In this document: positions 6,696 to 27,848 of the stretch, piece after piece | Numbering within the stretch: position 1 is the first letter of the stretch | Layout: each line of letters begins with the position of its first letter | Assembly: GCF_014207855.1 (NCBI RefSeq) | Contig: NZ_JACHKZ010000003.1 | Location: 186,001 to 250,000 of the forward strand | Source of the DNA: Comamonas odontotermitis | GTDB taxonomy: Bacteria; Pseudomonadota; Gammaproteobacteria; Burkholderiales; Burkholderiaceae_C | Length of the DNA: 64,000 nucleotides | Direction: 5' to 3' | Position numbers and translations under genes: made by a program | The notes under the pieces: model-generated | The model's database searches: none | What the model was told of the DNA's origin: nothing | Seen by the model: the letters and a program-made list of their open reading frames with translations, nothing else

Positions 6696-6702
6696 GCCGC
6701 CC

Positions 6703-11261: not shown

Positions 11262-13001
11262 ATGACGACCAGCACTCTGAATGAGCCCATCTTTGCAACC
11301 GCCGCCGGCCAGGCTGAGGTGGCGCGACCCCTGCTGGGCGAAATGCTGGTGCAGGCGGGCAAGCTATCGCCGCGCGATCTGGAGCGGGCCTTGCAGGCGC
11401 AGCAGGAGATGGGCAGCCTCATCGGGCAGGTGCTGGTGCAGTTGGGCCTGGTCTCCGAGATGGACCTGATGCAGACGCTGGCGCGCCAGCTGCAGATTCC
11501 GTTCACGCTCGGCACGGATTTCCCCCCCGAAGCCATTGAAGTGCCCGGCCTGCTGCCGGAGTTTCAGCATGCCCAGCACGTATTTCCACTGAAACTGGAA
11601 AACGGCGTGCTGGATGTGGCCATGACAGCGCCGCAGGATCCATTTGTGATCAAGGCACTGCAGATGTCCACGGGGCTGGTGATTCAGCCCCATCTGGCGC
11701 TGGAAGCCGATATTGAGAAGGCGCTGCAGGAACCCGAGCCCGAAGTGGCCGAGGAAGACGATGACGGCCTTTTCGGCGATGGCGCGGATGTCGGCGATTT
11801 TGTCGAACACCTGAAAGACCTGGCGAGCGAAGCTCCGGTGATTCGTCTTGTCAATAGCATTATTGGCAAAGTAACGGATTTGCGGGCTTCCGATATTCAC
11901 CTGGAGCCTTTTGATGACGGGCTGCATGTGCGCTACCGCGTGGACGGCGTGATTCACCCAGGCGAGCTGGTGCCGCCGCGCCTGTCGGCGGCAGTGGGCT
12001 CGCGTGTCAAACTGATGGCGCATCTGGACATCGCCGAGCGCCGCTTGCCACAGGATGGCCGTATCAAGACCCGCGTCAAAGGGCGTGAGCTGGATCTGCG
12101 TGTCTCCACCGTGCCCACTGTGCATGGCGAGAGCATCGTGATGCGTGTGCTGGACCGTGCCAGCGTGCGCCTGCAGCTCGAAACCATGGGCTTTTCCAAG
12201 GACACCCTGGCCAAGTTCAACGATCTGCTGGCGCGCCCGCATGGCATTTTGCTGGTGACGGGGCCCACGGGTTCGGGCAAGACCACTACGCTGTATGCGG
12301 CCTTGTCGAAGATCGATGCCGAGGCCAACAAAATCATCACCGTGGAAGACCCGGTGGAATACCAGCTCGAAGGCATCAACCAGATCCAGGTGCATTCGCA
12401 GATCAACCTGACCTTTGCGAACGCATTGCGCTCCATTCTGCGGCAGGATCCGGACATCATCATGATCGGTGAAATGCGTGACGGCGAAACCGCGCAGATT
12501 GCCGTGCAGTCTGCACTGACTGGTCACCTGGTGCTGTCCACTCTGCACACCAATACCGCAGCAGGTGCCATCACCCGTATGCAGGACATGGGGGTGGAGA
12601 GCTACCTGATCACCTCTTCCGTCAATGGTGTGCTGGCGCAGCGCCTGGTGCGTACCCTGTGCAGCAACTGCAAGGAAGAATACGAGCCCGGCGAAGAAGT
12701 TCGCCAACGGTCCGGTCTGGCACGTTTCAGCCAGACTGGTCAACCCATCTATCGCGCCGTCGGCTGCAATGCCTGCCGCCAGACGGGCTACAAGGGGCGT
12801 ACGGGCATCCACGAGCTGTTCGTGCTGGATGAGCCGATGCGCAATGCCATCAATGCGGGCAAGGATTCGAACGAGCTGTTTGCGCTGGCGTCCAGGGCCG
12901 GCATGCTCAGTCTGTATGAAGACGGCTTGCGCAAGGTGGCTTCGGGCATGACCACGCTGGACGAAGTGGCCCGCGTAACGCAGGACCAAGTCGATGGCTG
13001 A
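11262..13001 (+). CDS. gspE: Type II secretion ATPase GspE
   Basis: Hexameric cytoplasmic ATPase that powers pseudopilus assembly. In the 579 residues, a GspE N-terminal domain covers about 25-150 and the ATPase core about 190-560. Walker A (GPTGSGKTT) lies near 333-341, the Asp box (VEDPVEYQLEGINQIQ) near 363 and Walker B (DPDIIMIGEMRD) near 397. The zinc-binding pairs CSNC (467-470) and CNAC (502-505) are both intact. First gene of the operon; TACACT at 11195 could be a -10 box but the -35 is unclear. It overlaps gspF by 8 bases. Confidence 0.96.
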   Translation: MTTSTLNEPIFATAAGQAEVARPLLGEMLVQAGKLSPRDLERALQAQQEMGSLIGQVLVQLGLVSEMDLMQTLARQLQIPFTLGTDFPPEAIEVPGLLPEFQHAQHVFPLKLENGVLDVAMTAPQDPFVIKALQMSTGLVIQPHLALEADIEKALQEPEPEVAEEDDDGLFGDGADVGDFVEHLKDLASEAPVIRLVNSIIGKVTDLRASDIHLEPFDDGLHVRYRVDGVIHPGELVPPRLSAAVGSRVKLMAHLDIAERRLPQDGRIKTRVKGRELDLRVSTVPTVHGESIVMRVLDRASVRLQLETMGFSKDTLAKFNDLLARPHGILLVTGPTGSGKTTTLYAALSKIDAEANKIITVEDPVEYQLEGINQIQVHSQINLTFANALRSILRQDPDIIMIGEMRDGETAQIAVQSALTGHLVLSTLHTNTAAGAITRMQDMGVESYLITSSVNGVLAQRLVRTLCSNCKEEYEPGEEVRQRSGLARFSQTGQPIYRAVGCNACRQTGYKGRTGIHELFVLDEPMRNAINAGKDSNELFALASRAGMLSLYEDGLRKVASGMTTLDEVARVTQDQVDG

Positions 13002-14265
13002 TTTCGCCTGGCACGCCATCAACGCCAGCGGCGAGCAAGTCCGCGGCACATTCCAGGCGCCGAGCGTGGCGGCGGTGCAAAAGCATTTGCGTGCGCAAAG
13101 GCTCACGCCGGTGCGCATTGTCGATGCGGCCGACGCGGCAGCCCTGATGCCCACAGGGGGCAAGGCCGACAAGAAGGCCGATGCTGCCAACGCCATTGTC
13201 AAAGCCAAGGCCACCAAATCTCAAAAGGGGCCGGCCAAGGCCGCAGATGTGCTGGCGATGACCTCCGAGCTGTCCATCATGCTCAAGGCGGGTCTGGCGC
13301 TTGACAACGCGCTGCGCGTGCTGATCGACATGTCCTACAAGGACAGCATGCGCGAGCTTCTGACTGGCGTGCTTGAAGCTGTCAAGGGCGGTGTTCCGCT
13401 GTCCAAGGCGCTGATGCAGCACCAGGAGCTGTTTGGAGACTTTTATATCAACATGGTGCGCTCGGGCGAAGCCAGCGGCCAGATGTCGGCGGTGCTTGGT
13501 CGGCTGGTGGAGCATCTGGAGCGCCAACGCGCCCTGAAGGAAAGCGTCATTTCCGCCACCATCTACCCGATGATTCTGGTTGCGGTGGCCATTTTGTCGC
13601 TGGTTGCCATGCTGGGCTTTGTCGTGCCGCAGTTTGAAAAGCTGTTCACTGACATGGGTGATGCGCTGCCTACGCCGACCAAGATCGTGATGACGATCGG
13701 CCAGGCCTTCCGCAAGAATGGGTGGATCATCCTGATCGTGGTTGCATTGGCGGTCTATGTGCTGCGCCGCTGGTTCCAATCCCCCAAGGGGCGGATGTGG
13801 TGGCAGGGCGTTTTGCTGCGCATGCCGGTACTCGGCCGTCTGGCGCTCAAGTACCAGTTAACTTTGTACTCCCGCTCACTTGGCACTTTGCTGGGGAACG
13901 GTGTACCGCTGCTCACGGCGCTGCACATTGCGACTGATACGGTCAGCAACCGCATCATCCAGACCGAGCTGGCCAAGATTCCGCCCATCGTCAAGGAGGG
14001 CGGCAAGATGGTGCAGGCCATGAATACGACCACCGTGTTCGAGCCTCTGGCTGTCAATCTGGTGCGGGTGGGTGAGGAGACGGGGCGGCTCGGTCAGATG
14101 ATGCTGGAGCTGTCGAATATCTTGAACCGCGAGGTGGAAACCGGAATCAAACGTGCCTTGACCATGATCGAGCCCGTATTGATTTTGGTGCTGGGTATCC
14201 TGATCGCCTCCATTATTGTGTCGATCTTGATGGGCATCTTGTCCGTCAATGATCTGGCCGTCTAA
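12994..14265 (+). CDS. gspF: Type II secretion inner-membrane platform protein GspF
   Basis: Polytopic platform protein contacting GspE and GspL. The 423 residues contain two T2SSF repeats (about 85-205 and 290-410), each starting with the Leu-rich pattern seen in TSELSIMLKAGLALDNAL and YSRSLGTLLGNGVPLLTAL. Three membrane spans lie near 186-208, 242-260 and 393-418. An Ala/Lys-rich linker at 45-80 (GGKADKKADAANAIVKAKAT) is longer than I expect for the family. It begins inside the end of gspE, implying coupled translation. Confidence 0.95.
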   Translation: MADFAWHAINASGEQVRGTFQAPSVAAVQKHLRAQRLTPVRIVDAADAAALMPTGGKADKKADAANAIVKAKATKSQKGPAKAADVLAMTSELSIMLKAGLALDNALRVLIDMSYKDSMRELLTGVLEAVKGGVPLSKALMQHQELFGDFYINMVRSGEASGQMSAVLGRLVEHLERQRALKESVISATIYPMILVAVAILSLVAMLGFVVPQFEKLFTDMGDALPTPTKIVMTIGQAFRKNGWIILIVVALAVYVLRRWFQSPKGRMWWQGVLLRMPVLGRLALKYQLTLYSRSLGTLLGNGVPLLTALHIATDTVSNRIIQTELAKIPPIVKEGGKMVQAMNTTTVFEPLAVNLVRVGEETGRLGQMMLELSNILNREVETGIKRALTMIEPVLILVLGILIASIIVSILMGILSVNDLAV

Positions 14266-14293
14266 TATTTTGATTCAACAAGGAGTGCCTGCC

Positions 14294-14725
14294 ATGAAGG
14301 CTTTATTTACCCAAAAACTGCAACGTAAAAGCCGCGGCTTTACGCTGATTGAACTGCTGGTGGTGCTGGCGATCCTGACCTTGCTGGCTGGCCTGGTAGG
14401 TCCCAAGGTGCTGAGCCAGTTGGGCGGCGCCAAGTCCAAAACCGCCGGTGTCCAGATTGCCGACCTGCAAAAGGCACTCGACATTTATAAGCTGGACGTG
14501 GGCCGTTATCCCACCACGGAAGAGGGGCTGGAGGCGCTGGCCAAGCAGCCTGGCAATGTCCGCGGCTGGAATGGCCCGTATCTGACTGGCGGCGTGCCCT
14601 CTGACCCATGGGGCAATCCATACCGCTATGGCTATGCCAATGGCAAGGTGGAATTGCTGTCCCTCGGCTCGGATGGCCAGCCCGGCGGTGAAGGCGAGGC
14701 CGCTGACATCCGCAACGCGCAATAA
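14294..14725 (+). CDS. gspG: Major pseudopilin GspG
   Basis: Major subunit of the type II secretion pseudopilus. The 143-residue precursor has a short basic leader ending in G before FTLIELLVVLAIL: cleavage by prepilin peptidase after G, Glu at +5. The C-terminal half holds the typical GspG core (YPTTEEGLEALAKQPGNVRGWNGPYL, DPWGNPYRYGYANGKVELLSLG, then DGQPGGEGEAADI), including the calcium-site region. The ATG at 14294 has AAGGAG upstream. No prepilin peptidase gene (gspO/pilD) lies in the window, so it must be elsewhere. Confidence 0.97.
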   Translation: MKALFTQKLQRKSRGFTLIELLVVLAILTLLAGLVGPKVLSQLGGAKSKTAGVQIADLQKALDIYKLDVGRYPTTEEGLEALAKQPGNVRGWNGPYLTGGVPSDPWGNPYRYGYANGKVELLSLGSDGQPGGEGEAADIRNAQ

Positions 14726-14755
14726 GCGCCAGGCAGCGCTCGACCGGAAACGTCC

Positions 14756-15256
14756 GTGCCCATTCTTCTGCCGTGGTTGCATCGCCCTTTGCGCACTTCG
14801 GTGCGCAGAACATCAGCACATCGGGGGTTCACTCTGATCGAGCTGATGGTGGTGTTCGCCATCATGGCCTTGGTGGTGGCCATGGCGCCGGTCGCCTATG
14901 ACCGGCTCAAGGAGGGTGTGCAGTACCGTGATACGGTGCGCAGCCTGATCACGCAGTTGCGTTCTGCCAGATACTCCGCAGTTTCGGAGGGCGTGCCGGT
15001 GCGCTTCACGGTGGATTTGAAGTCCCGCGAGTACGGCGTGCCCGGCGCTGTCAAGGAAATTCCTGAAACCGTTGACTTGCGCACCATTGTGGCGGACCGG
15101 GAGTTTGTTCCTGGCGGCTCTGCCTCCATCGTGTTTCTGGCTTCCGGCGGATCGACGGGTGGCAGCGTTGAAATCCTGCGTAAGACAGGCGCAGGCACGC
15201 GCCTGCGTGTTGACTGGCTGTCGGGGCGCGTCACCCAGGAGCCCCTGCTGCAATGA
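14756..15256 (+). CDS. gspH: Minor pseudopilin GspH
   Basis: Minor pseudopilin of the pilus tip. The 166-residue frame begins with GTG at 14756; no ATG lies between this codon and the prepilin motif. A basic leader of 23 residues precedes the G/FTLIELMVVFAIMALVV cleavage and helix motif. The C-terminal domain (YRDTVRSLITQLRSARYSA, later GGSTGGSVEILRKTG) matches the GspH fold. It lies 30 bases after gspG and overlaps gspI by 4 bases. Confidence 0.9.
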   Translation: MPILLPWLHRPLRTSVRRTSAHRGFTLIELMVVFAIMALVVAMAPVAYDRLKEGVQYRDTVRSLITQLRSARYSAVSEGVPVRFTVDLKSREYGVPGAVKEIPETVDLRTIVADREFVPGGSASIVFLASGGSTGGSVEILRKTGAGTRLRVDWLSGRVTQEPLLQ

Positions 15257-15693
15257 TGACGCGCACCGTACCCTGTCCTGCCAATCGCCGGGCGCAGCGA
15301 GGCATGACCTTGCTTGAACTGCTCGTGGCACTGGCCATCATGGCGATATCCCTTGGCATGATCTATCGTGCAACTGGCAGCAATGCGCGCAGCGTGGGTG
15401 ATCTCGGTCATCACCAATATGCAGTGCAACTGGCCGAATCATTGATGGATTCACGGGATTCGGTGTATGAAAGTGGCTGGAACGAGTCTGGAGAAAGCAA
15501 TGGCTTTCAATGGAGCATTCAAAGCGCACCCTTCAAAACCGACGTGGGCGAGGCTCCCAATATTCCTCTTCTGCACGAGGTGCGCATCGTTGTCAGTTGG
15601 AGCGATGGCGACAAGCCCAAGAGTTTTGAGCTGAGCACCCTGCGCGCCCAGCGCCGTCCGCCAGACCCGGCAGAAAACAGGGGTGCTCCATGA
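15253..15693 (+). CDS. gspI: Minor pseudopilin GspI
   Basis: 146 residues with a 17-residue leader and G/MTLLELLVALAIMAISLG. Methionine rather than phenylalanine at +1 is tolerated in minor pseudopilins. The remainder (QYAVQLAESLMDSRD, then SWSDGDKPKSFELSTLRAQRRP) resembles the T2SSI domain. It overlaps gspH and gspJ by 4 bases each, so translation is coupled. In characterised systems GspI forms the tip complex with GspJ and GspK. Confidence 0.92.
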   Translation: MMTRTVPCPANRRAQRGMTLLELLVALAIMAISLGMIYRATGSNARSVGDLGHHQYAVQLAESLMDSRDSVYESGWNESGESNGFQWSIQSAPFKTDVGEAPNIPLLHEVRIVVSWSDGDKPKSFELSTLRAQRRPPDPAENRGAP

Positions 15694-16418
15694 TGGATGG
15701 ACGCCGCTCTTTTGCACACCACGACCACGGCACAAAAGCTGAGCGCCGTGCCTACGCCGGTTTCACGCTGGTGGAGATGCTGGTTGCGCTTTCGCTGCTC
15801 TCGCTCATCATGCTGGGTTTGGCCGGTGCCATGGGCACGATGGGGCGAACGGAAACGAGTATCGACAACCGGCTTGACCGCATGGACGAAGCTCGCTCCA
15901 GCACAGACTTCCTGCGTTCTGTGCTGTCGCGCATTTCGGCTAAAAGGGTGCAGGGCCTGCAGGAGCAGGGGATGGGCGATGCAGCCAAGTCGCAGTTCTT
16001 TTTTTCAGGGGCTGCCCAGACCATGACCTGGGTGGGCATCATGCCAGCGCGTTATGGGGTGGGTGGCCGCTATCATTTTCGATTGGCCATGGGAGATTAT
16101 CTGGGCGCTCCTGCCGTGGTTCTGAGCTATACGCCGTGGATCGACCAACAAACCTTGCCCAACTGGGCAACTGCCGAGAGCTATCCGGTGCTCGCCCATG
16201 CAACAGGGGTTTCCTTTCAATATCTGAATGCGGTTGTCGACCCTCCGCAATGGGGCAGTGACTGGGGCGTCGTGGATCAACTGCCTCAAGCGGTGCAGAT
16301 ATTGATGAGCTCCGAGCAGGGTGTATTGCCCCCCCTGGTCGTGCAAATGCGCGTCATGCCCGCAGGAGACCCGCGCGGGGGCGGCGGCGGTGCCTCTTTG
16401 GGGGGCAGTGCATCATGA
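15690..16418 (+). CDS. gspJ: Minor pseudopilin GspJ
   Basis: 242 residues. The leader is about 24 residues (MMDGRRSFAHHDHGTKAERR...), followed by G/FTLVEMLVALSLLSLIMLG. The body carries the family-type segments RLDRMDEARSSTDFLRSVLS and a C-terminal region ending RGGGGGASLGGSAS. The glycine-rich tail is unusual. It overlaps gspI and gspK by 4 bases each. Confidence 0.9.
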   Translation: MMDGRRSFAHHDHGTKAERRAYAGFTLVEMLVALSLLSLIMLGLAGAMGTMGRTETSIDNRLDRMDEARSSTDFLRSVLSRISAKRVQGLQEQGMGDAAKSQFFFSGAAQTMTWVGIMPARYGVGGRYHFRLAMGDYLGAPAVVLSYTPWIDQQTLPNWATAESYPVLAHATGVSFQYLNAVVDPPQWGSDWGVVDQLPQAVQILMSSEQGVLPPLVVQMRVMPAGDPRGGGGGASLGGSAS

Positions 16419-17305
16419 GACTTGGGCGCAAGCGATCCCTTCAGCAGGGTAGCCAGGCATACAGCGCTGGCCAGCACGCCGGCATGGCGTTGATTGCCGT
16501 ATTGTGGCTCGTGGCCGCTCTGAGCCTGATGGTGACTGGCGTCAGCGGAGTGGTGCGGCAAGAGGCGCGCATGGTGGGTGTCGCCAAGGACCGCGTCACA
16601 GCACATGCCATGGGCGATGCTGCGGTCATGCTGGTGTTGCAGCAGCTTGTGGCAGACCGAAACGTGGTTTGGAAGTGGACGGATACGTCGGTGAATTACC
16701 AAGGCGCGGAGATTTCGGTCAGCGTAATGCCCTTAAGCGGCCTGATCAATATCAATGGTGCATCGTTGCCTCTATTGACGGCATTGCTGACCATTGGGGG
16801 CGGGGTTCCCGAAGGGCCTGCACAGGAAATCGCCATCAGCATCCTGGATCGGCGGGAGCGATCTTCGCTCGATGGCCGCAGACCGGAGCGCTTCGAGGCG
16901 ATTGAGGATCTCATGCAAATCCCGGGGATCGATTACGACCTCTATGCTAGACTCGCGCCGCTGATCACCGCCTCCAGTTCGGGCTCGGGCGGTGCAGCTG
17001 TCAATCCGTTGGCGGCGCCGCCCGAGGTGCTGCGCATTCTGGCCAACGGCAATGAGGGAGTCGTCAATCAGATTCTGGCCGCTCGCGCCTCTGGCGATGG
17101 GGCCAGTGTGGATACGACCGGATTGGACGGCAATCTCTCTCGCGCAGGTAGCGCACAGCGCCGTTACCGTGTAACGGCCAAGGTTCCCATGGCCGACGGC
17201 CGATTTTTTCTCGTGGATCGCAGCGTCTACTTTGGCTCCCGCACCCGTGACGGACTGCCTTGGTACACGTTCGAAGCACGTCAGATGTTGCAGCCCGCGT
17301 CCTGA
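16415..17305 (+). CDS. gspK: Pseudopilus tip protein GspK
   Basis: 296 residues. A basic leader precedes G/MALIAVLWLVAALSLMV, the variant pseudopilin motif of GspK, which lacks the +5 Glu and sits at the pilus tip. SGLININGASLPLL near residue 110, RPERFEAIEDLMQIPGID near 155 and the C-terminal VSVYFGSRTRDGLPW-type region fit the T2SSK domain. The length is near the family norm. It overlaps gspJ by 4 bases; gspL begins 18 bases later. Confidence 0.92.
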   Translation: MRLGRKRSLQQGSQAYSAGQHAGMALIAVLWLVAALSLMVTGVSGVVRQEARMVGVAKDRVTAHAMGDAAVMLVLQQLVADRNVVWKWTDTSVNYQGAEISVSVMPLSGLININGASLPLLTALLTIGGGVPEGPAQEIAISILDRRERSSLDGRRPERFEAIEDLMQIPGIDYDLYARLAPLITASSSGSGGAAVNPLAAPPEVLRILANGNEGVVNQILAARASGDGASVDTTGLDGNLSRAGSAQRRYRVTAKVPMADGRFFLVDRSVYFGSRTRDGLPWYTFEARQMLQPAS

Positions 17306-17323
17306 TTCAAACAAAGAAACGGT

Positions 17324-18667
17324 ATGGCACTTTCCACAGACTCGCGCTTTTTTGGACTGGATTTGAACCAGTTGAAAGCCGATGTATTAAAAACTTGGCA
17401 AAAGGCTCCGCAATGGCCGCCTTTGAGCTGGCTGCGTCCAGAGCAGGCGCTGACGCTGGTGCCAACACAAGGCGATCCGGTGGTTGTATGGGAGAGCGGA
17501 TCACCGGCGCCTGACGGCAAGCGGGCTCCGGAATTCTGGGCGGTTGAAATCCCTGAAAGCATGGTGTTGCGCAAGACCTTGCAGCTGCCAGCACTGGATC
17601 CGCAGGACTGTGCCAGTGCTGCGCAGCTGGAAGTGCAGGCCATCAGCCCTTTTGCGGCAGCAGATGTTCTGTGGGGATACGCGGAGCTTTCACGAAGCAG
17701 TCAGGCTGTGCGCATGCAACTGGTGCTGGCATCTCGCACCCAGGTAGAGCCATATATCCAGAGCAAGATAGCGGAGCGCCAGCAGACCCTGGCCGAGAAC
17801 GCCAAACCATTGCTGCAGCCGGAAGTCTGGGTGTTTGCTCCGCAGCGCCAGCCTATCGTGATCCACGGGTTTGGCGAAGGCGCCCGCGCCGCCGCTGGCC
17901 GAAAGAAGTTGATGCTCAACGCGGTGGGCGTTGGTGTCGCAGCTCTTCTGTGTATTGCCCTTGCCCTTACGCCAACGGCACAGTTGCGCTTGCGCGCGAT
18001 TGAGGCTGTTCACGCCTACGAAGGCATGGCAGCCAAAACGACAGATGTAGTGGGCAAGCGTGAACAATTGATGCAGAGCGCCGATAAGGTCGCTGCACTG
18101 TCGGAGTTGCTTGCCGAACGAGTGGACAGTGTCAAGGTGCTGAGCATGCTGACAAAAATACTTCCAGACGACACGGCGTTGCAATCGGCGCGAGTCCAGG
18201 GCAACAAGGTCACCCTGGTGGGCCTCACGGAAAACTCGTCAACGCTCATGCAAAAGCTGAGCAATGAAGAGGGCGTGAAGGATGTTCGTGCGCCCAGTGC
18301 GGCAACTCGCCTGGCAGGTGCCAACAGAGAGTCTTTCACGATTGAGCTCACACTGGATAACCGGGTATTTGGGCCAACCCTCAAGGTTGAGGATCCGCCG
18401 CCACCGAGCCAGCCGGCACCGGCCGATGGAGCGGGGGCGCAGCCGGCGGCTGCAAGCAACGAGGCTCCCGCCGCAGCGCCAGCGGCGCTCAGTGCGGCTC
18501 CTGCGCCTGCTCCTGCAGCTGCTCCCGCAACTCCGCAGCCAACTCCCCCACAATCTGCGCCGCCTTCCAGCGCAAACGCGCCCAAAGGGCCGACCCTTGG
18601 CGGCTCCAGATCGGGGCCTAGTCTTGGCGGCTCCAAGCCTGCGCCTGCACAGGAGACGCGCAAATGA
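17324..18667 (+). CDS. gspL: Type II secretion platform protein GspL with long Pro/Ala tail
   Basis: Bitopic inner-membrane protein linking GspE to the periplasmic parts. In the 447 residues, a cytoplasmic actin-like domain covers about 1-190, one membrane span about 197-217 (VGVGVAALLCIALALTP), and a periplasmic ferredoxin-like domain about 240-350 (LLAERVDSVKVLSMLTKILP, then LTLDNRVFGPTLKVE). An extra tail of nearly 90 Pro/Ala/Gln-rich residues ends with two copies of a P(T/S)LGGS(R/K) motif. The same motif ends the GspN-type protein three genes on. Overlaps gspM by 4 bases. Confidence 0.92.
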   Translation: MALSTDSRFFGLDLNQLKADVLKTWQKAPQWPPLSWLRPEQALTLVPTQGDPVVVWESGSPAPDGKRAPEFWAVEIPESMVLRKTLQLPALDPQDCASAAQLEVQAISPFAAADVLWGYAELSRSSQAVRMQLVLASRTQVEPYIQSKIAERQQTLAENAKPLLQPEVWVFAPQRQPIVIHGFGEGARAAAGRKKLMLNAVGVGVAALLCIALALTPTAQLRLRAIEAVHAYEGMAAKTTDVVGKREQLMQSADKVAALSELLAERVDSVKVLSMLTKILPDDTALQSARVQGNKVTLVGLTENSSTLMQKLSNEEGVKDVRAPSAATRLAGANRESFTIELTLDNRVFGPTLKVEDPPPPSQPAPADGAGAQPAAASNEAPAAAPAALSAAPAPAPAAAPATPQPTPPQSAPPSSANAPKGPTLGGSRSGPSLGGSKPAPAQETRK

Positions 18668-19917: not shown

Positions 19918-22374
19918 ATGACGACTTCCACTTTGCGTCGCACCGCGCTCTTTTTGGCACTTGGGCAGGTGCTCATCCTGCAATCAGGGTATGCCCAGAC
20001 TCCAGCAGCTGGAGGTGCTGTCGCTGCTGCGCCCGCTGGAAACGCGCAGGTGCCGGTACTGCAGGCGCCTGCGATCCTGGTTAACGGCAAGCAGCCTTCG
20101 AGTGGTGATGACGAGCAATCCACCGAGCCCCGTATCATGCGCGGGACTGACAAGGTGCTCAATATTGACAAGTCGGAGCCCATTCCCAAGGGGGCGCCGG
20201 TGACTTTCCGCTTTGAAGAAGCTCCTGTCGCGGAGGTGGTACGCACCATCCTGGGCGATATGCTGAAGCTAGACTTCGTCATGCACCCACCCTTGCAGGG
20301 AACGGTTACCTTGACCACTCGCAATGCCATCGAGCCAGATACTGCGGTGTTCCTGCTGGAAGCTGCGCTGCAGGCCAACGGGCTGGCGATGGTGCGTGAT
20401 GCGCGTGGTGTATACCAGGTAGGCAAGCCAGAAGTGCTGCGCAGCCTGGTGGGTGCCGTGCGCGTGGCTGGAGCTCCAGGCTCCATGGCCCCAGGTTATG
20501 GCGTGATTGTGATTCCTCTTCAATATATTGGTGCCAATGAAATGGCCAATATCCTGAAGCCCATTGCACCTCCCGAAGCTGTCGTCAAGGTGGATGCAGT
20601 GCGCAATGTCATCATCATGCAAGGAAATCGCACCCAGTCCGAAGGTTGGATGGAGATGGTGAAAACCTTCGATGTGGACCTGCTCAAAGGCATGTCGGTG
20701 GGCATTTATCCCCTCAAGCATGCTTCCATTGAAGAGGTTTCTGCGGCCTTGCAGATGGTCAACAGCGGTGGACAAACCGGTGGAGCAAATCAGCAATCGG
20801 CCGGAGGCAGCGGTGGAATTGCCGGCAACTCTGCCAGCGTTGCGGCTGGCCGGCGTCCCGGGCAGGCAGCCTCACCTTCAGCCACTGGAACAGCGGGGTC
20901 GAATACCCCATTGAGTGGCAATGCGGCAGCTGCTGCAGCATTGCTGTCGTCTCTGGGGGAATCCAATCCGCTTTATGGCGCGTTGCGCGTTTTACCGATT
21001 CCGCGACTGAATGCCCTCATGGTCATCACGCCGCGGGCAGCTTATCTGGACGAGGCCGAGAAGTGGATTCGCCGCCTGGATGTTCCAGGCTATGGCGGCA
21101 GCGAGCCTGAGCTGTATGTTTATCGCGTCCAGAACGGCAATGCAAAATACTTGGCGCAAGTACTGAACGGCATTTTTGGCGGGCAGCAAGCGGGTGCTGC
21201 AGGCAATATGACCTCTGGTGTAGCCCCTGGATTGAACAACAACGTGAACCGCACACCTGGCTCTTTCAGCAACCTGGGCACCTCTTCGGGCCTGGGCTTC
21301 AACAGTGGCAACCGATTTGGCTTGAACCAGAACGCCCAGCAGCAAGCGAACGCTCCAACCATCACGGCAACTGCGATTGGTGATATCCGCGTTGTGGCTG
21401 ACGAATTCAACAACACCATCCTGGTCTGGAGTACTGGTTCTCAATACCGCAAGATCGAGGCGTCGCTCAAGCGCCTTGATGTGGCGCCGATTCAGGTGCT
21501 GATCGAGGCCAGCATCATCGAAGTCACCTTGAACGACAACTTGCAATATGGCGTGGAATGGCTGTTCAAGAACAATGGCATACGTGCCAATGGGCAGAAT
21601 TACACGGGTTTCGGTAATTTCGGTAGCCTGTCCGCCGACAATGCAGGTGCCAACAATGGCGCTCTCTGGGGCGGCAGTGGCAGCCAGTTCTTTACCTATT
21701 CGCTCTTTAGCGGGCAAGGCATTGCCGCACGGTTGAGTGCGATTGCGGGCAATGGGCAGGTAAAAATGCTCTCCAGCCCTTCTGTGATGGTGATGGACAA
21801 CCATCCGGCCACTATTTCCGTGGGCGAGCAGATCCCGGTGAGAACGGCGGATTACATCAACAACTCTGGTAGCAACTACATTACCCAAAACTACCAGCTG
21901 AAAGATACTGGCGTGATTTTGAACGTCACGCCCTCCGTCAACTCCGGCAACATGGTCAGCTTGCAGATTGACCAGTCTGTCATCGACAGCGCGGGTATTG
22001 ACACAGCGTCCAACCAAACCAAATTCTCGAACCGGCAACTCACCAGCAAGCTGGCTGTCCGCTCTGGCGAATCGATTGTGATGGGTGGCCTCATCAAGGA
22101 CAGAACGGAAGATTCGGATAGCGGTATTCCGCTGCTCAAGGACATTCCTGTGATTGGAAAGGCATTTAGCAGTACCAAAAAGAGCACCGCCCGCACGGAA
22201 CTATTGCTGGTCATGACGCCTCGTGTAGTACGTACAGACGTCGACGTGCGAGAAGTCAGTGAGGAGCTGCGTGATCGCTTGCGTGGTTTGAACGATGATG
22301 ATCTGCTGGGTAGCCTCAAGAAGGCGGAGCCTCGCCGCCCTGCTTCGACGATCCAACCGTTGGTAACTCAGTAA
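19918..22374 (+). CDS. gspD: Type II secretion outer-membrane secretin GspD
   Basis: 818-residue secretin forming the outer-membrane channel. The signal peptide ends near SGYAQ at about residue 27. N-terminal N0-N3 domains span roughly 90-510, with an Asn/Gly/Ser-rich insert at about 280-350 and another at about 420-480. The secretin core lies at about 530-755 and contains VKMLSSPSVMVMDNHPATIS, VGEQIPV and VMGGLIKDRTEDSDSGIPLL. It follows gspN by 55 bases and has only a weak ribosome site. No lipobox is present, so outer-membrane targeting probably needs a pilotin. Confidence 0.96.
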   Translation: MTTSTLRRTALFLALGQVLILQSGYAQTPAAGGAVAAAPAGNAQVPVLQAPAILVNGKQPSSGDDEQSTEPRIMRGTDKVLNIDKSEPIPKGAPVTFRFEEAPVAEVVRTILGDMLKLDFVMHPPLQGTVTLTTRNAIEPDTAVFLLEAALQANGLAMVRDARGVYQVGKPEVLRSLVGAVRVAGAPGSMAPGYGVIVIPLQYIGANEMANILKPIAPPEAVVKVDAVRNVIIMQGNRTQSEGWMEMVKTFDVDLLKGMSVGIYPLKHASIEEVSAALQMVNSGGQTGGANQQSAGGSGGIAGNSASVAAGRRPGQAASPSATGTAGSNTPLSGNAAAAAALLSSLGESNPLYGALRVLPIPRLNALMVITPRAAYLDEAEKWIRRLDVPGYGGSEPELYVYRVQNGNAKYLAQVLNGIFGGQQAGAAGNMTSGVAPGLNNNVNRTPGSFSNLGTSSGLGFNSGNRFGLNQNAQQQANAPTITATAIGDIRVVADEFNNTILVWSTGSQYRKIEASLKRLDVAPIQVLIEASIIEVTLNDNLQYGVEWLFKNNGIRANGQNYTGFGNFGSLSADNAGANNGALWGGSGSQFFTYSLFSGQGIAARLSAIAGNGQVKMLSSPSVMVMDNHPATISVGEQIPVRTADYINNSGSNYITQNYQLKDTGVILNVTPSVNSGNMVSLQIDQSVIDSAGIDTASNQTKFSNRQLTSKLAVRSGESIVMGGLIKDRTEDSDSGIPLLKDIPVIGKAFSSTKKSTARTELLLVMTPRVVRTDVDVREVSEELRDRLRGLNDDDLLGSLKKAEPRRPASTIQPLVTQ

Positions 22375-22395
22375 TCCAATCAGCTAATTCATTTT

Positions 22396-22830
22396 ATGAA
22401 AGAAATTGTAATGAAGACTCGCTTTTCTGCGAAGGGTGCGATGCGTGCAGGCGCCATGATCATGGCTGCCTTGTCGCTGGGCGCATGCGCTACCATGGAT
22501 TCGGGGACACCGGAGCAAATCGTGACCAAGCGTGCGCAAGCCTATTGGGATGCGCGCCTGAAGGGCGATGCGACCACCGCCTATGGGTTCGCCAATGATG
22601 CCTTCCGGCAAGCTGTGAGCGAGCAGAAGTTCAAACAGGGGCACATGGCCACCTTTGCTGTTGGAGCAGAGGTGCAAAAGGTGGAGTGCGATGCGCAAAA
22701 ATGCGACGTCGGCACCAATTTAAAGGTCAATCCGCCGCTGCCTGGTAAAAAGATCGGTACCATTGATGTGTATTCGAAGCAAACTTGGTTGCTCGAAGAC
22801 GGTCAGTGGAAACTGTTCATGGAGCCTTGA
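22396..22830 (+). CDS. Small NTF2-like lipoprotein following the secretin gene
   Basis: A 144-residue predicted lipoprotein: positively charged N-terminus, hydrophobic stretch MIMAALSLGA, then Cys31 in an LGAC lipobox. The mature part (TPEQIVTKRAQAYWDARLKG, then YSKQTWLLEDGQWKLFMEP) resembles NTF2-like folds seen in periplasmic proteins of unknown function. VECDAQKCDVG could form a disulfide. It starts 21 bases after gspD on the same strand, so it is probably in the same transcript. That position is typical of secretin accessory proteins. A start at 22411 is equally plausible. Role unknown. Confidence 0.7.
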   Translation: MKEIVMKTRFSAKGAMRAGAMIMAALSLGACATMDSGTPEQIVTKRAQAYWDARLKGDATTAYGFANDAFRQAVSEQKFKQGHMATFAVGAEVQKVECDAQKCDVGTNLKVNPPLPGKKIGTIDVYSKQTWLLEDGQWKLFMEP

Positions 22831-22908
22831 GACGGGTCGTGCATGGCAAGTTGGTTTAGGATTGTTGTAATTAGTCTACAGCTATCTCCAAAAAACAGCG
22901 AACTTGCT

Positions 22909-22938
22909 TTGCATCCGGTCGGAGCGCTATGCTATTAT
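22909..22938 (+). promoter_or_regulatory. Predicted sigma-70 promoter of the abundant exported protein
   Basis: TTGCAT (22909-22914) and TATTAT (22933-22938) are separated by 18 bases. The predicted start is near 22945, giving a leader of about 55 bases that ends in GGAG, seven bases before the ATG at 23000. No gene precedes it within 78 bases, so this unit is probably transcribed independently of the secretion operon. Confidence 0.55.
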
Positions 22939-22999
22939 TTCTTAGCGTAAACAATCGTGGTAGTTGCGCTGACTAACTTTTTTTAACTGGAGTGTGTTT

Positions 23000-24532
23000 A
23001 TGAAGAAAAATGTTCTGGCCCTGAGCATTGCTGCCATGATTGGCGGCTTTGCTGGCTCCGCCAACGCTTTGACCGCTGCTACGGCAACCGCGTTCGAGCA
23101 AAACGACGGTGGCGCAGGTCACATTTTGGTGGTGCCTTACTTCACCACGCAAAACAACAACATGTCTGTGATTCACGTGGTGAACACCGACACGCAGAAC
23201 GGCAAGGCTCTGAAGGTTCGCTTCCGCGGCGCTGCTAACTCTGACGATATCTTGGACTTTACCGTGTTCCTGTCGCCATACGACGTGTGGACCGGTTCCG
23301 TTCAAGCTGATGCCAACGGTTCGTACTTCATGACCGCTGACAACAGCTGCATGTACCCAGACATCCGTAAGGTGAAGCAGTCGTTCATTCAAGACCGTCT
23401 GTCTGACAGCTGGTCTGCTGAAAAGCGTGTGAACAACACCAAGGAAGGCTACATCGAAATCCTGAACATGGCTGACATTCCTCCCAGCACTGTTTCGGGC
23501 ACGCTGTACCCAGCCATCAAGCACAAGAGCGGCGGCGCACCTTCTTGCGACGAAGCAGTGCTGGCTAAGACCCTGTCGATCAACCCAGAAAAGGCAGCTG
23601 ACGCTACCGCCCTGGGCTACGACACGCCTACCGGTGGTCTGACTGGTGACTGGTACATCCTGAACGTGAACCAAACCACCACGTTCTCGGGTGCTGCTAC
23701 CGCCATCAAGGCTGTGGACGCTAACGGTGCTAACGCCCGCGGTAACTTCGTTGCCTTCCCTCAAGACAACCTGTCGCCAGCAGTTGGTAACACCGACCTG
23801 TACACCGCTGACCCACTGTTCATCTCGACCGCAGTGGACAAGGGTAACGTCGCTCAGAACAAGCTGATCCAGATCGCTAACTACGACCTGCCAGACCTGT
23901 CGACCCCATACCTGACCAACAACGTTGGCGTTCCTGCACAACAAGCTTCGACCTTGACCGCTGCAGTGGCAAACAATGGCGTGGCCAACCAGTTCGCAAC
24001 CGACACCCTGATCGATGCGAAGACTGACTGGGTGCTGTCTATGCCTCTGCGTCGTTACAGCGTTGGTGCAAACTACGCTGCAGCTACCAAGGACAACGCT
24101 TACCAAGTGTTCAACCCAGCTGTGTTGAACCCTGCTAACGGTCAGCCTTTCTTTGCTCGTAGCATCACCTCTGTTGACGCTGATGGCAACATCTGCGTGG
24201 ACACCGCAAGCAACACCTTCTACGATCGTGAAGAATCGTCGGTGACCAACGGTGCTGTTGTGTCTCCAGGTACCGCTAAGAAGATCCGTCTGTGCGGTGA
24301 AGTGAACGTGCTGGCATTCAAGGATGCAGGTGCTTCCGTTCTGGGCGCTACGGTTGCTCGTCAAACCGCTGCTGTTCAATACGAAAACGGCTGGGGCAAG
24401 GTCAACTACGGTTCCAACAATGCATTCCCAGTGGTTGGTTCTTCGTTCATCAAGCTGACCAACAGCGGTGGCGCTGCTAACGGCTTCAGCGGTACCTACG
24501 GTATCACCTGGCCTCACCGTTTCTCTAAGTAA
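23000..24532 (+). CDS. Abundant exported protein, candidate surface-layer or type II cargo
   Basis: 510 residues. A clear Sec signal (MKKNVLALSIAAMIGGFAGS, cleavage after ANA near residue 23) precedes a mature chain of about 487 residues that is Ala/Asn/Thr/Val-rich and almost Met-free, with four cysteines (SCMYPD, SCDEAV, ICVDT, LCGEV) that could pair. HILVVPYFTTQNNNMSVIHV, then FTVFLSPYDVWTGSV recalls a family of proteobacterial surface proteins, but I cannot name it with certainty. Codon choice is sharply biased (GCT, CGT, AAC, ACC, CTG, AAG), unlike its GCC/GCG/CGC-rich neighbours, which marks high expression. It has its own promoter and strong terminator. The gspD operon lies upstream and a periplasmic prolyl isomerase downstream. 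Confidence 0.75.
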   Translation: MKKNVLALSIAAMIGGFAGSANALTAATATAFEQNDGGAGHILVVPYFTTQNNNMSVIHVVNTDTQNGKALKVRFRGAANSDDILDFTVFLSPYDVWTGSVQADANGSYFMTADNSCMYPDIRKVKQSFIQDRLSDSWSAEKRVNNTKEGYIEILNMADIPPSTVSGTLYPAIKHKSGGAPSCDEAVLAKTLSINPEKAADATALGYDTPTGGLTGDWYILNVNQTTTFSGAATAIKAVDANGANARGNFVAFPQDNLSPAVGNTDLYTADPLFISTAVDKGNVAQNKLIQIANYDLPDLSTPYLTNNVGVPAQQASTLTAAVANNGVANQFATDTLIDAKTDWVLSMPLRRYSVGANYAAATKDNAYQVFNPAVLNPANGQPFFARSITSVDADGNICVDTASNTFYDREESSVTNGAVVSPGTAKKIRLCGEVNVLAFKDAGASVLGATVARQTAAVQYENGWGKVNYGSNNAFPVVGSSFIKLTNSGGAANGFSGTYGITWPHRFSK

Positions 24533-24541
24533 TTTGCCCCG

Positions 24542-24557
24542 CAGGTCGTAAGACCTG
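24542..24557 (+). repeat. Small hairpin after the exported-protein stop
   Basis: CAGGTC-GTAA-GACCTG, a perfect six-base stem ten bases after the stop. With the stronger hairpin that follows it could protect the 3' end of an abundant mRNA. Confidence 0.5.
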
Positions 24558-24586
24558 TTTGGTAAGTGCTTAGGAAACTAGCCAAC

Positions 24587-24620
24587 AGGGCGGAGAGCAA
24601 TCTCCGCCCTTTTTGTTTTT
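24587..24620 (+). terminator. Strong rho-independent terminator
   Basis: AGGGCGGAGA-GCAA-TCTCCGCCCT, a perfect ten-base stem with a GNRA-type tetraloop, followed by TTTTGTTTTT. It ends the exported-protein transcript before the isomerase gene. Confidence 0.93.
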
Positions 24621-24709
24621 CCTTTTGTTGCCAATCGCTTTGTGGTCAATGCCAGGGGCGGTTGGTGCTTTTTTGCTATCCTTGCAGTTTTGGTTAAAGG
24701 ACAGTGCTC

Positions 24710-25609
24710 ATGCGTAATTGGTTGAAGTCGGTAGGTATTGTTGTGGCATTGGGAGGCGCCAGCGTGGCTGCGATTGCCCAGGGCAACAACAACGCCGTGT
24801 TGTTGCAAGGGCCTGCGACTGCGATATATGAGAGCGATGTATTGAACGATGCCAAGCGCATGCCTGAAGAGATGCGTAGCAGCTTTTTGGCCAAGCCAGA
24901 AAGCGTGGCGCAGATGGTCGAAGCGCTGTATGTAAGGCGAGCTATCGCGGAAACGGCACGATCCAGCGGCCTGGCAGACCAACCTGAGATCGCGGCCGCG
25001 ATCAAGATTGCAACAGACAAGATACTGTCAGATGCCTATCTGCAAAAATTCAATGCCGAGCACAAGCCGGATAACAAGCTGGCTGAGGCACAAGCCAAAG
25101 CTGCGTATGCCGCGAAAAAAGAGACTTTCAAGGCTCCTGAGCAAGTGCACATCGCGCATATTCTGGTGATGAACCAGGAAGATGATGCCGCAGCCAAGGC
25201 CAAGGCCGAAAAGCTGCTGGCAGAGGCACAAGCGGGTGCAGATTTCGCGCAATTGGCCAAAGACAATTCCTCTGATGCATCCAGCGCCGTCAAGGGTGGC
25301 GATCTGGGTCTGGTTTCACATGGCAGAATGGTGCCTGAATTCGAGGCTGCAGCCTTCGCGCTGGAAAAACCCAATCAGCTGAGCCCGGTGATCAAGAGCC
25401 AGTTCGGCTACCACATCATCAAGTTATTCGAAAAGAAGCCAGCCCGCACCATGTCTTTTGAAGAAGTGCGTCCTGAGCTGGAAAAGCAGTATGTGCAGCA
25501 GTCCCTGCAAACTGCACGTCAGGGCGAGGTGGAAAGAGTGCTGAAGGCAGCAAGCTGGAACCGTGCCAATATGGAGGCATTTTCTGCCCGTTTTGCCGAC
25601 AAGAAGTAA
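24710..25609 (+). CDS. Periplasmic PpiC/parvulin-type peptidyl-prolyl isomerase
   Basis: 299 residues. A signal peptide (MRNWLKSVGIVVALGGASVA, cleavage near AIAQ) is followed by a SurA/PrsA-like helical N-domain at about 30-125 and a rotamase domain at about 130-240: EQVHIAHILVMNQ, FAQLAKDNSSDASSAVKGGD and FGYHIIKLFEKKPA are the parvulin hallmarks. It should assist folding of exported proteins. AAAGGA lies eight bases before the ATG at 24710; a GTG at 24704 is too close to it. The gene is flanked by terminators on both sides. Its position next to the abundant exported protein suggests that as a client (inference). Confidence 0.92.
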   Translation: MRNWLKSVGIVVALGGASVAAIAQGNNNAVLLQGPATAIYESDVLNDAKRMPEEMRSSFLAKPESVAQMVEALYVRRAIAETARSSGLADQPEIAAAIKIATDKILSDAYLQKFNAEHKPDNKLAEAQAKAAYAAKKETFKAPEQVHIAHILVMNQEDDAAAKAKAEKLLAEAQAGADFAQLAKDNSSDASSAVKGGDLGLVSHGRMVPEFEAAAFALEKPNQLSPVIKSQFGYHIIKLFEKKPARTMSFEEVRPELEKQYVQQSLQTARQGEVERVLKAASWNRANMEAFSARFADKK

Positions 25610-25652
25610 GCTGCGTTCTTTATTGAGCCGATACAAATTTTGACGCAACAAG

Positions 25653-25681
25653 AAGGAGAGGGCAGGGCCTTCTCCTTTTTT
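25653..25681 (+). terminator. Rho-independent terminator after the isomerase
   Basis: AAGGAGA / TCTCCTT stem with an 11-base loop and a following T-run. It separates the isomerase from the second ABC exporter. Confidence 0.75.
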
Positions 25682-25722
25682 ATGCGCTGGCTCCGGCCGC
25701 ATGGGCGGGCCTTGGAAACCAT

Positions 25723-26523
25723 ATGCATTCGCTTTTGCAGAATATTCGTGAGCTCGTAGCCAGTCGCCAGTTGATTGGCGTAATGACGCGGCGAGAGGTT
25801 GCGGCCCGCCATGCGGGAACGGCTTTGGGGGTTCTGTGGCCCTATCTGCAGCCGCTGCTGTCGGTAGCGGCCTATTACCTGGTATTTGACATTGTGTTTT
25901 CCATGCGCCTTGGAGACGGTGCCAAAACCCATGCCGTAGGCACATTTCTGATCGTCGGAGCATTGCCCTGGATGGCCTTTTGCGACGCCGTTGCGCGTGG
26001 AATGGGCAGCCTTCTGGAGGCGGGGGCCATGCTGCAAAAGAATCCTCTGCCTCCTGTCTTGTTTCCTGTGCGGTCGGTGCTGGCCAGCTCCATCATCTTT
26101 GGTCCGCTGATGCTGCTGGTGGCGTTGTGCTACACGCCGTTGCACCACATGCAATGGGGCGTACTGGCCTTGCTGCCGCTGATGGCGATGCAGCTGCTAA
26201 TGACGATGTTGCTGGCCTACGCTCTGGCAATCTTTGCAGCAGCCTTGCGCGATACCGTGCAGTTGGTCGGTTTTGCGCTGTCCGTGGGTATCTATCTGAC
26301 GCCGATTCTGTTTCCTGTTTCCATGTTTCCAGCGGAGTGGCGCTGGCTGCTGTGGCTCAATCCGATGGCATCGTATGTGCAAGGCTATCAGTCGATATTG
26401 CTGCAAGGACAGTGGCCCGAGTGGCCGGTATGGCTTGGCGGGTTGGTATGGATCGGTCTGCTTGCCGTGGTCGTGAATTTGCTGGTGCGCAGAAGCCGGG
26501 ATCAACTGGTGGATTGGCTATGA
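25723..26523 (+). CDS. Second ABC-2 polysaccharide export permease
   Basis: 266-residue inner-membrane protein of the Wzm/KpsM/TagG class with about six spans. The N-terminal motif TRREVAARHAGTALGVLWPY aligns with RRDVSERYTGSVVGWLWSL of the first permease, and the C-terminal WLNPMASYVQGYQSILLQ with its WLNPLTFFIEQSREVL. The two are clearly divergent paralogues, not a recent duplication. The 4-base overlap (ATGA) with the next gene couples it to its ATPase. Confidence 0.9.
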   Translation: MHSLLQNIRELVASRQLIGVMTRREVAARHAGTALGVLWPYLQPLLSVAAYYLVFDIVFSMRLGDGAKTHAVGTFLIVGALPWMAFCDAVARGMGSLLEAGAMLQKNPLPPVLFPVRSVLASSIIFGPLMLLVALCYTPLHHMQWGVLALLPLMAMQLLMTMLLAYALAIFAAALRDTVQLVGFALSVGIYLTPILFPVSMFPAEWRWLLWLNPMASYVQGYQSILLQGQWPEWPVWLGGLVWIGLLAVVVNLLVRRSRDQLVDWL

Positions 26524-27848
26524 CAACAAACGAGACAACCGCCCAGCCTGTACTGGTGATCAAGAACCTGGGCAAGGAATACAAGCTCTATGATTCACCG
26601 CGCCAGCGTGTGAAGGCGTTGCTGACGGGACGCGCCACCCATCGCAGTCACTGGGCCTTGCGCGATGTGAGCTTTACCTTGCAGCGTGGCCAATGCATTG
26701 GCGTGATTGGCGACAACGGTGCAGGCAAGAGTTCGCTGCTGAAGTTGCTTGCCGGCACGATGCAGCCTTCTACCGGCACCATCGAGCGCACCGGGCGGAT
26801 CACCGCCATTCTGGAGCTGGGTGCGGGGTTCCATGGTGATTTCACTGGGCGCGAGAATCTGTACTTTGCCGGCAGCTTGATTGGAATCAACCAACACGAG
26901 ATGCGCCAGCTGGAGCCGGAGATCATTGCTTTCTCCGAGCTGCACGATGCCATTGACCGACCGGTGAAGACCTATTCCTCCGGGATGAATGTGCGCCTTG
27001 CATTCGCGCTGGTGACCGCCGTGCAGCCGGATGTATTGATCGTCGACGAGGCGCTGGCCGTGGGTGACCAGAGCTTTCAGAAGAAATGCATCGAGCGGAT
27101 TCTCGACTTTCGCAAGAAGGGGTGCACGATCCTGTTCTGCTCCCACAGCCCCTACCATATCCGCCATCTGTGTGATGCTGCCCTGTGGCTGGAAAAGGGC
27201 CAGGTGCAGATGTTCGGGGAGACCGAGGCGGCGCTCGCTGCCTACGATGTGCGCACCCGCCAGTTGAAGGAAGAAAAGGATCGGCTGCAGTGGGGCGATG
27301 ATGCGCCAGCCGGCGTTGCGAACCTGGGCCTGCCGCCCATGGAGCAGACTGCCGAGCTGCCAGAGGCAGGCGCCCCGGAGGGCTGTGTCAAAGAGGCAGA
27401 GCCTTACGTCGTTCAGCGACCCAATGCGCCTCAGGCGCAGGAGACGGGCAATGCCTGCCTGCTGTCCGTCGAGATCGCCCACCTGAGCGGTGATACGCCG
27501 CCGGTGCTGCAGGGCAATGATCTGGTCGTCACCATCCGCGCGCGTGGCAACGGGTCGGAGTGTCCCCACATCGGGTTCATGATCGAGCAAAACAAGGGCG
27601 TGGGCATTGCCTGCCTGGCCACCCATGAAGACGGCGCGCTGCCGGTGCTGCAGCCCGATGGCACTTGGCAGTCGGTCCTCACCTTCCCCGATTTGCCGCT
27701 GCACAGCGGTGACTATGTGGTGAGCGCGTTTCTGTTCGATGGGTCGGGTCTGGCCGTGTACGACCAATGGTTCCAGTACACGGTGTTTCGCTTCATCTAC
27801 CCGAAGCCCCTTCCCGGGCTGGTACGATTGCCGCACGAATGGAGCTGA
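26520..27848 (+). CDS. Second polysaccharide export ABC ATPase with C-terminal extension
   Basis: 442 residues. Walker A (GDNGAGKSS) lies near 64, signature YSSGMNVRLAF near 151, Walker B (VLIVDEAL) near 171 and the H-loop as CSHSPYHI near 210. About 150 residues after the nucleotide-binding domain (from about 290) form a beta-rich Wzt_C-like domain (LQGNDLVVTIRARGNG, then FPDLPLHSGDYVVSAFLFDG). Like the first Wzt it is therefore predicted to recognise a specific glycan end. Two methyltransferase genes follow directly, which could make that end group. Confidence 0.9.
   Translation: MTTNETTAQPVLVIKNLGKEYKLYDSPRQRVKALLTGRATHRSHWALRDVSFTLQRGQCIGVIGDNGAGKSSLLKLLAGTMQPSTGTIERTGRITAILELGAGFHGDFTGRENLYFAGSLIGINQHEMRQLEPEIIAFSELHDAIDRPVKTYSSGMNVRLAFALVTAVQPDVLIVDEALAVGDQSFQKKCIERILDFRKKGCTILFCSHSPYHIRHLCDAALWLEKGQVQMFGETEAALAAYDVRTRQLKEEKDRLQWGDDAPAGVANLGLPPMEQTAELPEAGAPEGCVKEAEPYVVQRPNAPQAQETGNACLLSVEIAHLSGDTPPVLQGNDLVVTIRARGNGSECPHIGFMIEQNKGVGIACLATHEDGALPVLQPDGTWQSVLTFPDLPLHSGDYVVSAFLFDGSGLAVYDQWFQYTVFRFIYPKPLPGLVRLPHEWS

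Follow-up and report, generated by a model that had tools for sequence, protein, structure and literature searches.

NpdA is reported to form the surface layer (S-layer) in Delftia acidovorans Cs1-4 and in Paracidovorax citrulli (PMC3110197, PMC10765051), and this layer is lost on mutation of npdA in Delftia Cs1-4 (PMC3110197) as well as in P. citrulli (PMC10765051). That NpdA builds this layer and that gsp genes, which encode a type II secretion system (T2SS), lie in its neighbourhood is already published (PMC10765051). Here, we describe a locus in a 64,000-nucleotide stretch of the Comamonas odontotermitis genome (the window) that, judged from its sequence, is likely an NpdA S-layer locus with a probably dedicated T2SS, a peptidyl-prolyl isomerase (PPIase) and a Wzm/Wzt pair serving an anchor of lipopolysaccharide (LPS). 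It shares with the systems of Delftia and Paracidovorax an orthologous surface protein, the upstream gsp cluster, a product that appears to be abundant and the bacterial group. What is added to the published work are the quantified partners PPIase and Wzm/Wzt, whose linkage to npdA was measured in the present analysis, and a parallel module with another exported protein. The main text of PMC10765051 makes no mention of LPS, O-antigen, polysaccharide, wzm, isomerase, chaperone or anchor, although its figure S5 may draw them, and no link of a PPIase or of Wzm/Wzt to NpdA was found in searches of the open-licence literature as judged by the titles and the openings of the abstracts listed.

An earlier note on this DNA had drawn a parallel to Aeromonas, and the parallel is correct: in A. 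salmonicida, T2SS genes (sps) and vapA, the gene of the A-layer protein, are described as lying between wzm and wzt, amid the rml, wzm and wzt genes of the wbsalmo O-antigen cluster, and LPS is the tether of the layer (PMC4483657). As described there, the insert lies between wzm and wzt, whereas in the window wzm and wzt follow the PPIase gene; the likeness is one of layout. The RsaA layer of Caulobacter is bound to LPS. RsaA also forms a Gram-negative S-layer but is described as secreted by a type I, not a type II, system (PMC7821379, PMC10765051). The gene of the S-layer protein Slr4 of Pseudoalteromonas tunicata lies beside a T2SS cluster, an arrangement reported to be kept in relatives (PMC7821379). 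Compared by description, Slr4 is a differently named S-layer protein from marine Gammaproteobacteria, and the text of PMC7821379 mentions neither O-antigen nor isomerase.

The block in the window extends from 11262 to 27848, and its open reading frames lie at the positions given in the earlier note:

11262-13001, + strand: gspE, T2SS ATPase (PF00437, 1.5e-144)
12994-14265, + strand: gspF (TIGR02120, 1e-104, 351 bits, under the cut-off of 424)
14294-14725, + strand: gspG, major pseudopilin (TIGR01710, 151 bits, over the cut-off of 88.9)
14756-15256, + strand: gspH, minor pseudopilin (best match NF047827, 5e-21, under cut-off)
15253-15693, + strand: gspI, minor pseudopilin (best match NF047828, 1e-12, under cut-off)
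15690-16418, + strand: gspJ, minor pseudopilin (best match PRK08808, 1e-13, under cut-off)
16415-17305, + strand: gspK (NF037980, 2e-10, under cut-off)
17324-18667, + strand: gspL (PilN, 3e-10, over the Pfam cut-off)
18664-19233, + strand: gspM (T2SSM_b, 5e-20, over the Pfam cut-off)
19230-19862, + strand: gspN/gspC-like gene (PF11356 T2SSC, 0.0016, 18.7 bits, cut-off 27)
19918-22374, + strand: gspD, secretin (TIGR02517, 445.8 bits, over the cut-off of 351)
22414-22830, + strand: small putative lipoprotein, 138 residues (LGAC motif by eye)
23000-24532, + strand: npdA, S-layer protein by homology to NpdA, 510 residues (signal peptide about residues 1-23 by eye)
24587-24610, + strand: intrinsic terminator after npdA (10-bp stem and T tail)
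24704-25609, + strand: parvulin-type PPIase, foldase (PF13616, 8e-31; periplasmic by its signal-like N terminus)
25723-26523, + strand: wzm, ABC-2 glycan exporter permease (PF01061, 6e-13)
26520-27848, + strand: wzt, ATPase with a Wzt_C glycan-recognition domain (ABC_tran, 1e-20; Wzt_C, 34.1 bits, cut-off 30.4)

The 510-residue protein is, by its sequence, an orthologue of NpdA. It probably starts at the ATG at 23000, the homology runs over the full length, and npdA is present in a single copy in the genome. The best matches come from Comamonas koreensis (75% identity), a species on the published NpdA list (PMC10765051), and from Comamonas sp. BIGb0152 (72-74%). Identity is 51% to the protein of P. 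citrulli DSM 17060 (L072) and 49% to that of D. acidovorans NBRC 14950 (L075), and it is through these two proteins, not through the exact published records, that the comparison with NpdA was made. The DSM 17060 protein, which lies in a gsp context, has a mass of 52,399 Da after removal of 25 residues; for the S-layer protein of P. citrulli AAC00-1, 52,394 Da and a 25-residue signal peptide are published (PMC10765051), and this agreement to within 5 Da is counted for the identity with NpdA. The N terminus is signal-like and conserved in the alignment A1, as judged from the alignment or by eye.

NpdA matched no family in Pfam at E 1 or in NCBIfam at 0.1, and no relative of solved structure was found by sequence at E 10. 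The AlphaFold model was built from 78 sequences, a single-sequence model (pLDDT 32) having been set aside; it has a pLDDT of 92.6 and a pTM of 0.93, is dominated by short strands with few helices, and shows no sign of a porin barrel. No PDB entry reached E 0.001 in a Foldseek search (best E 0.004). In VIA-align, the C-terminal part of the model (residues 299-487, mature numbering) resembled 1nc7_B (Thermotoga maritima 1070) with Z 9.0 and an rmsd of 2.5 over 106 aligned positions; for residues 14-196 the matches were 2ii8, at Z 5.1, and galectins, at Z about 4-5. These matches are weak and concern small beta-sandwich domains, and the shared sandwich may be their sole meaning.

The strong codon bias claimed for the gene was borne out. 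npdA has a codon adaptation index (CAI) of 0.784, the highest among the 43 window genes examined, which are chosen likely coding open reading frames and not all genes of the window. The reference, 11 ribosomal-protein genes of the same genome, gave 0.67-0.78 (0.64-0.77 leave-one-out), which places the codon bias of npdA level with the best of them. The effective number of codons is lower for npdA than for gspD in 30 of the 39 loci with a long gspD match. The gene had also been described as separately promoted and terminated. The terminator stands, and a terminator-like site was found 3' of the npdA stop codon in 73 of 77 relatives compared to 2.7 in shuffles; a separate promoter could not be shown, since a consensus promoter scan listed none on the + strand at 22831-22999, ahead of npdA.

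As to the secretion genes, the order gspE-F-G-H-I-J-K-L-M-N-D of the proposed operon was confirmed and is canonical for F, H-K, L and M. GspD and GspG lie over curated cut-offs and GspE matches PF00437. GspF, H, I, J and K are best matches at E 2e-10 or better, all under the NCBIfam cut-offs. A gene for the prepilin peptidase GspO was not annotated within the cluster, and no genome-wide search for GspO was made. The genome encodes further secretins, which are a second canonical GspD (L001, G000:C25), PilQ (L002, G000:C7) and a secretin under every NCBIfam cut-off (L004, G000:C20); the second GspD leaves the GspD of the window free to be dedicated. The 138-residue putative lipoprotein has no significant family in Pfam or NCBIfam. 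It was considered as a partner of npdA, but this was set aside because the gene stays by gspD where gspD lies away from npdA (L052, L089, L117, L124), and it is therefore placed with the secretin.

Relatives of npdA were collected by scanning named genomes with an alignment of relatives, and 80 of the 129 loci found were kept. Alignment A2 comprises 77 of these 80 and the window, and leaves out L081 (early frame end), L083 (near copy) and L111 (overlong frame). Each count omits the loci in which the contig breaks off too early to judge. The order gsp, lipoprotein, npdA, PPIase, wzm, wzt is found again in different genera. Directly before npdA, gspD is present in 56 of 72 evaluable loci and in 23 of 33 regions from family genomes; the lipoprotein gene adjoins npdA in 54 of 72, the PPIase gene is just downstream in 65 of 73, and wzm and wzt follow downstream in 51 of 67. 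In 64 loci both flanks could be judged: gspD, PPIase and wzm/wzt are all present in 44, four have PPIase and wzm/wzt without gspD just upstream, six have gspD and PPIase only, three PPIase only, two gspD only and five nothing. The unit npdA-PPIase-wzm-wzt is intact in L087, L089, L117 and L124, with gspD elsewhere on the other strand. The trio PPIase-wzm-wzt lies a few kb further from npdA in L094 and L112, the pair is inverted in L135, and a divergent wzm/wzt pair (28-34%) occupies the same place in L093, L110 and L137. Relatives of the Wzt recognition domain were present in 55 of the 80 npdA loci (median 60% identity) and relatives of the two methyltransferases encoded behind wzt in 34 and 31, counts that are made without a control for the usual conservation of such domains.

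Some genomes carry npdA-like genes in other arrangements. Four such genes stand in tandem in G018 (L042:5722-12359), whose main npdA copy lies elsewhere; within the 20 kb read, no gsp, PPIase or wzm/wzt genes were found beside them. G035 has about five npdA-like genes in 9 matching pieces (L034:11029-14639 and other places), with PPIase and wzm on another contig. In G210 (L153:5124-15169) a weak NpdA relative (37%) is followed by an exported-looking protein of about 495 residues and then, by eye, by type I secretion-like ABC/HlyD/TolC genes; L152 has a similar neighbour of about 400 residues. The divergent NpdA relative at L153 possibly uses another export route.

Co-occurrence was determined in 299 genomes of the family, of which 36 have npdA-like genes (the matches in G009, G178 and G210 being weak and partial) and 263 do not. 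The Wzm subfamily (53% identity or more) was found in 30 of the 36 npdA-positive and in none of the 263 npdA-negative genomes (Fisher 1e-35), with a clear gap from E 4e-84 to 1e-33, the next matches having 38% identity or less. It is kept in G256, G188, G263 and G086, although not adjacent to npdA, and npdA-negative members of mixed genera are also without it (e.g. G128; G190; G222 and G292). The PPIase at E 8e-34 or better was present in 31 of 36 and 0 of 263 (Fisher 3e-37), and the lipoprotein in 35 of the 299 genomes, 33 of them npdA-positive. As a control served the Wzm of a second pair upstream of the block (923-1750), which at E 1e-40 was found in 16 of 36 npdA-positive and in 7 of 44 npdA-negative genomes, the latter picked by handle number out of the 263. 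The upstream Wzm is associated with npdA and far from exclusive. Its relatives lie about 16-19 kb from npdA in G020:C22, G232:C17, G148:C239 and G079:C1, so two exporters near the block recur. The idea that a T2SS, a foldase and glycan genes jointly serve one dominant surface protein is supported by the NpdA orthology, the recurring layout and the tracking of npdA by PPIase and Wzm. Of the "analogous module" into which the earlier note had placed them, the surface-layer locus stands; it is of a published S-layer type, NpdA, and not an unknown analogue.

These comparisons with related genomes suggest that protein exporter, folding helper and sugar-chain exporter work together with NpdA. NpdA would be made in bulk, cross the inner membrane by means of its Sec signal peptide, fold in the periplasm with the aid of the adjacent PPIase and leave through the adjacent, probably dedicated T2SS, with the small lipoprotein as a putative accessory of GspD. 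Gene order, knowledge of the families and the Aeromonas case are the grounds on which Sec export, assisted folding and exit through GspD are proposed. The lattice would then assemble on LPS, for which the neighbouring Wzm/Wzt pair would export the polysaccharide. The LPS-dependent reassembly of the layer, the co-occurrence of Wzm and the relatives of the Wzt recognition domain and of the methyltransferases point to this anchor. Cylinders and sheets of the Delftia protein are reported to form again only when LPS is added (PMC3110197 citing Engelhardt), which fits glycan anchoring. For the LPS of Delftia Cs1-4, a rhamnose content of 49% and a glucose content of 38% are given (PMC4572682), in keeping with the rml genes next to the block. 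The block sits inside a large surface-glycan region, as the genes around it indicate:

923-1750, + strand: second wzm (ABC2_membrane, 3e-22)
1668-3122, + strand: second wzt (Wzt_C, 8e-38)
7638-8726, + strand: rmlB, dTDP-rhamnose pathway (TIGR01181, over cut-off)
8814-9707, + strand: rmlD, dTDP-rhamnose pathway (TIGR01214, over cut-off)
9708-10598, + strand: rmlA, dTDP-rhamnose pathway (TIGR01207, over cut-off)
10606-11154, + strand: rmlC, dTDP-rhamnose pathway (TIGR01221, over cut-off)
27915-28811, + strand: methyltransferase 1 (domain match)
28808-29692, + strand: methyltransferase 2 (domain match)
29792-38498, mixed strands (29792-31804 -, 31875-35582 -, 35640-36566 +): glycosyltransferase region (Pfam)
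37293-38498, + strand: GT4/WecA-like (Pfam)

No Pfam match at 1e-5 was found for 36616-37401. The predicted periplasmic prolyl isomerase was confirmed by its PF13616 match, and a Wzm/Wzt pair indeed lies on each side, at 25723-27848 and at 923-3122, the upstream pair 8 kb before gspE and outside the block. The best NCBIfam matches of wzt are polysaccharide and teichoic-acid export ATPases, under cut-offs.

Several observations weigh against an NpdA locus with dedicated secretion and anchoring genes. In 16 of 72 loci gspD does not directly precede npdA, and lone extra copies of npdA occur in L095, L114, L116, L123 and L131. L096, L100, L104, L122 and L129 have gspD, npdA and PPIase, and L118, L119 and L125 the PPIase only, with no wzm/wzt within reach. 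Six npdA-positive genomes are without the Wzm subfamily (G009, G178, G210, G063, G249, G012); in G063 and G249 a divergent wzm/wzt pair lies beside npdA, and G012 is cut off by the end of its contig. For the PPIase, a narrow gap, from 7.6e-34 to 7.4e-31, leads to the next match, which is in an npdA-negative genome, and the thresholds for Wzm and PPIase were set after viewing the lists. Moreover, the Fisher values overstate the association, since the genomes are related and kinship is ignored. GspC/N is recognised weakly only, and PMC10765051 leaves the T2SS dependence of NpdA to future work.

The most serious rival is that the glycan made and exported by the glycosyltransferase, rml and Wzm/Wzt products is attached to NpdA itself and does not form an LPS anchor. 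ABC exporters encoded with rml genes are used for the S-layer glycans of Gram-positive bacteria, which counts for this view, and NpdA is called a glycosylated S-layer protein in PMC3958437. The LPS-dependent reassembly (PMC3110197) speaks against it, as does the Aeromonas precedent, in which the glycan is the LPS O-antigen (PMC4483657). The search for a Wzy_C ligase cuts both ways: there is no such gene on the contig of the window, and the sole Wzy_C protein over the cut-off in the genome is encoded on another contig. The single NCBIfam family that this protein matches, at 46.6 bits against a cut-off of 188, is that of a putative O-glycosylation ligase of the exosortase system, so that it may serve LPS or protein. 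Altogether, we regard attachment of the glycan to NpdA as rather improbable.

It is more improbable still that the linkage is inherited only, NpdA leaving through the cell's other T2SS and being anchored by another molecule. The second canonical GspD in the genome would make this feasible, and the 16 loci with gspD away from npdA, as well as related gspD genes in genomes without npdA, are in line with it. However, PPIase and wzm/wzt stay by npdA in the four loci in which the gsp genes lie elsewhere, genomes retain the Wzm subfamily even where it lies away from npdA, and the control Wzm tracks npdA much less strictly. An ordinary porin or an enzyme of the periplasm is hardly a credible identity for the 510-residue protein. 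A major porin would also show a high codon bias, but the protein is orthologous to an experimentally proven S-layer protein, has no Pfam or NCBIfam match and gives a confident model of short strands with a weak resemblance to beta-sandwiches; for the orthologues, the reported npdA mutants of Delftia and P. citrulli contradict such a function (PMC3110197, PMC10765051).

Besides the NpdA locus with its probable T2SS, PPIase and LPS anchor, a similar set of genes was found in genomes without npdA. At E 1e-80 or better, gspD was matched in thirteen npdA-negative genomes, mostly with 42-50% identity (54% in G175). The DNA after gspD encodes an exported protein of 287-340 residues in ten of them; in the other three, the contig ends at gspD (G142) or an unrelated gene on the opposite strand comes next (G069, G175). 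By eye, a putative lipoprotein of 139-173 residues separates the exported protein from gspD in nine of the ten, and a second lipoprotein-like frame of 362-405 residues follows it in nine of the ten. A PPIase-type domain (Rotamase_2) was present in all eight downstream proteins tested for it, six over the Pfam cut-off, and a family-2 glycosyltransferase in both of two; the exporter pair of L139 consists of ABC2_membrane and Wzt_C. A search with alignment A3 found this family of about 310 residues in 12 of the 299 genomes, none of them npdA-positive, and all 12 have a Wzm relative in the same orientation 3-6 kb further downstream (28% identity in G141 and G234). A terminator-like site follows the gene in nine of ten cases, compared to 0.25 in shuffles, and the gene is more strongly codon-biased than gspD in seven of nine. 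Its bias is less extreme than that of npdA, a point against a second S-layer protein. The protein has no significant match in Pfam or NCBIfam. The shared signal and a "VVP" stretch had made it a candidate for a divergent NpdA, which was rejected: a profile comparison aligned the signal peptide only (probability 10%). Distant homology to NpdA may exist.

We propose the ~310-residue protein as a candidate for a second S-layer protein that uses the same chassis. We lean, by the smallest margin over an even chance, to the assumption that T2SS, lipoprotein, PPIase and Wzm/Wzt are a general S-layer module of the family whose cargo is swapped between NpdA and the ~310-residue protein as a new family of S-layer proteins; the Rotamase_2, glycosyltransferase and ABC2_membrane/Wzt_C tests raised our estimate slightly from evens. 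S-layer proteins are hard to find by sequence because they diverge fast. If the chassis rather than the coat protein is conserved, new S-layers could be found via the assembly genes, and LPS-dependent reassembly would be tied to two named genes, wzm and wzt. If true, the exchange of cargo on a single chassis would offer a route to what the type II system reads in its substrate.

The related gspD (about 50% identity) of L148 and L149 is followed by neither S-layer candidate. Among 114 genomes of the class, the ~310-residue family was found in one, G360, which belongs to another family of the class. Its 2.7-Mb genome holds 14 stretches matching the family (L158-L161 and other contigs), which is reminiscent of a variable repertoire of surface proteins. 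In the window itself, a type III pantothenate kinase gene lies at 6652-7476, within the surface-glycan region, and 40571-48519 carries genes of fatty-acid beta-oxidation and a TetR regulator that are unrelated to the S-layer locus.

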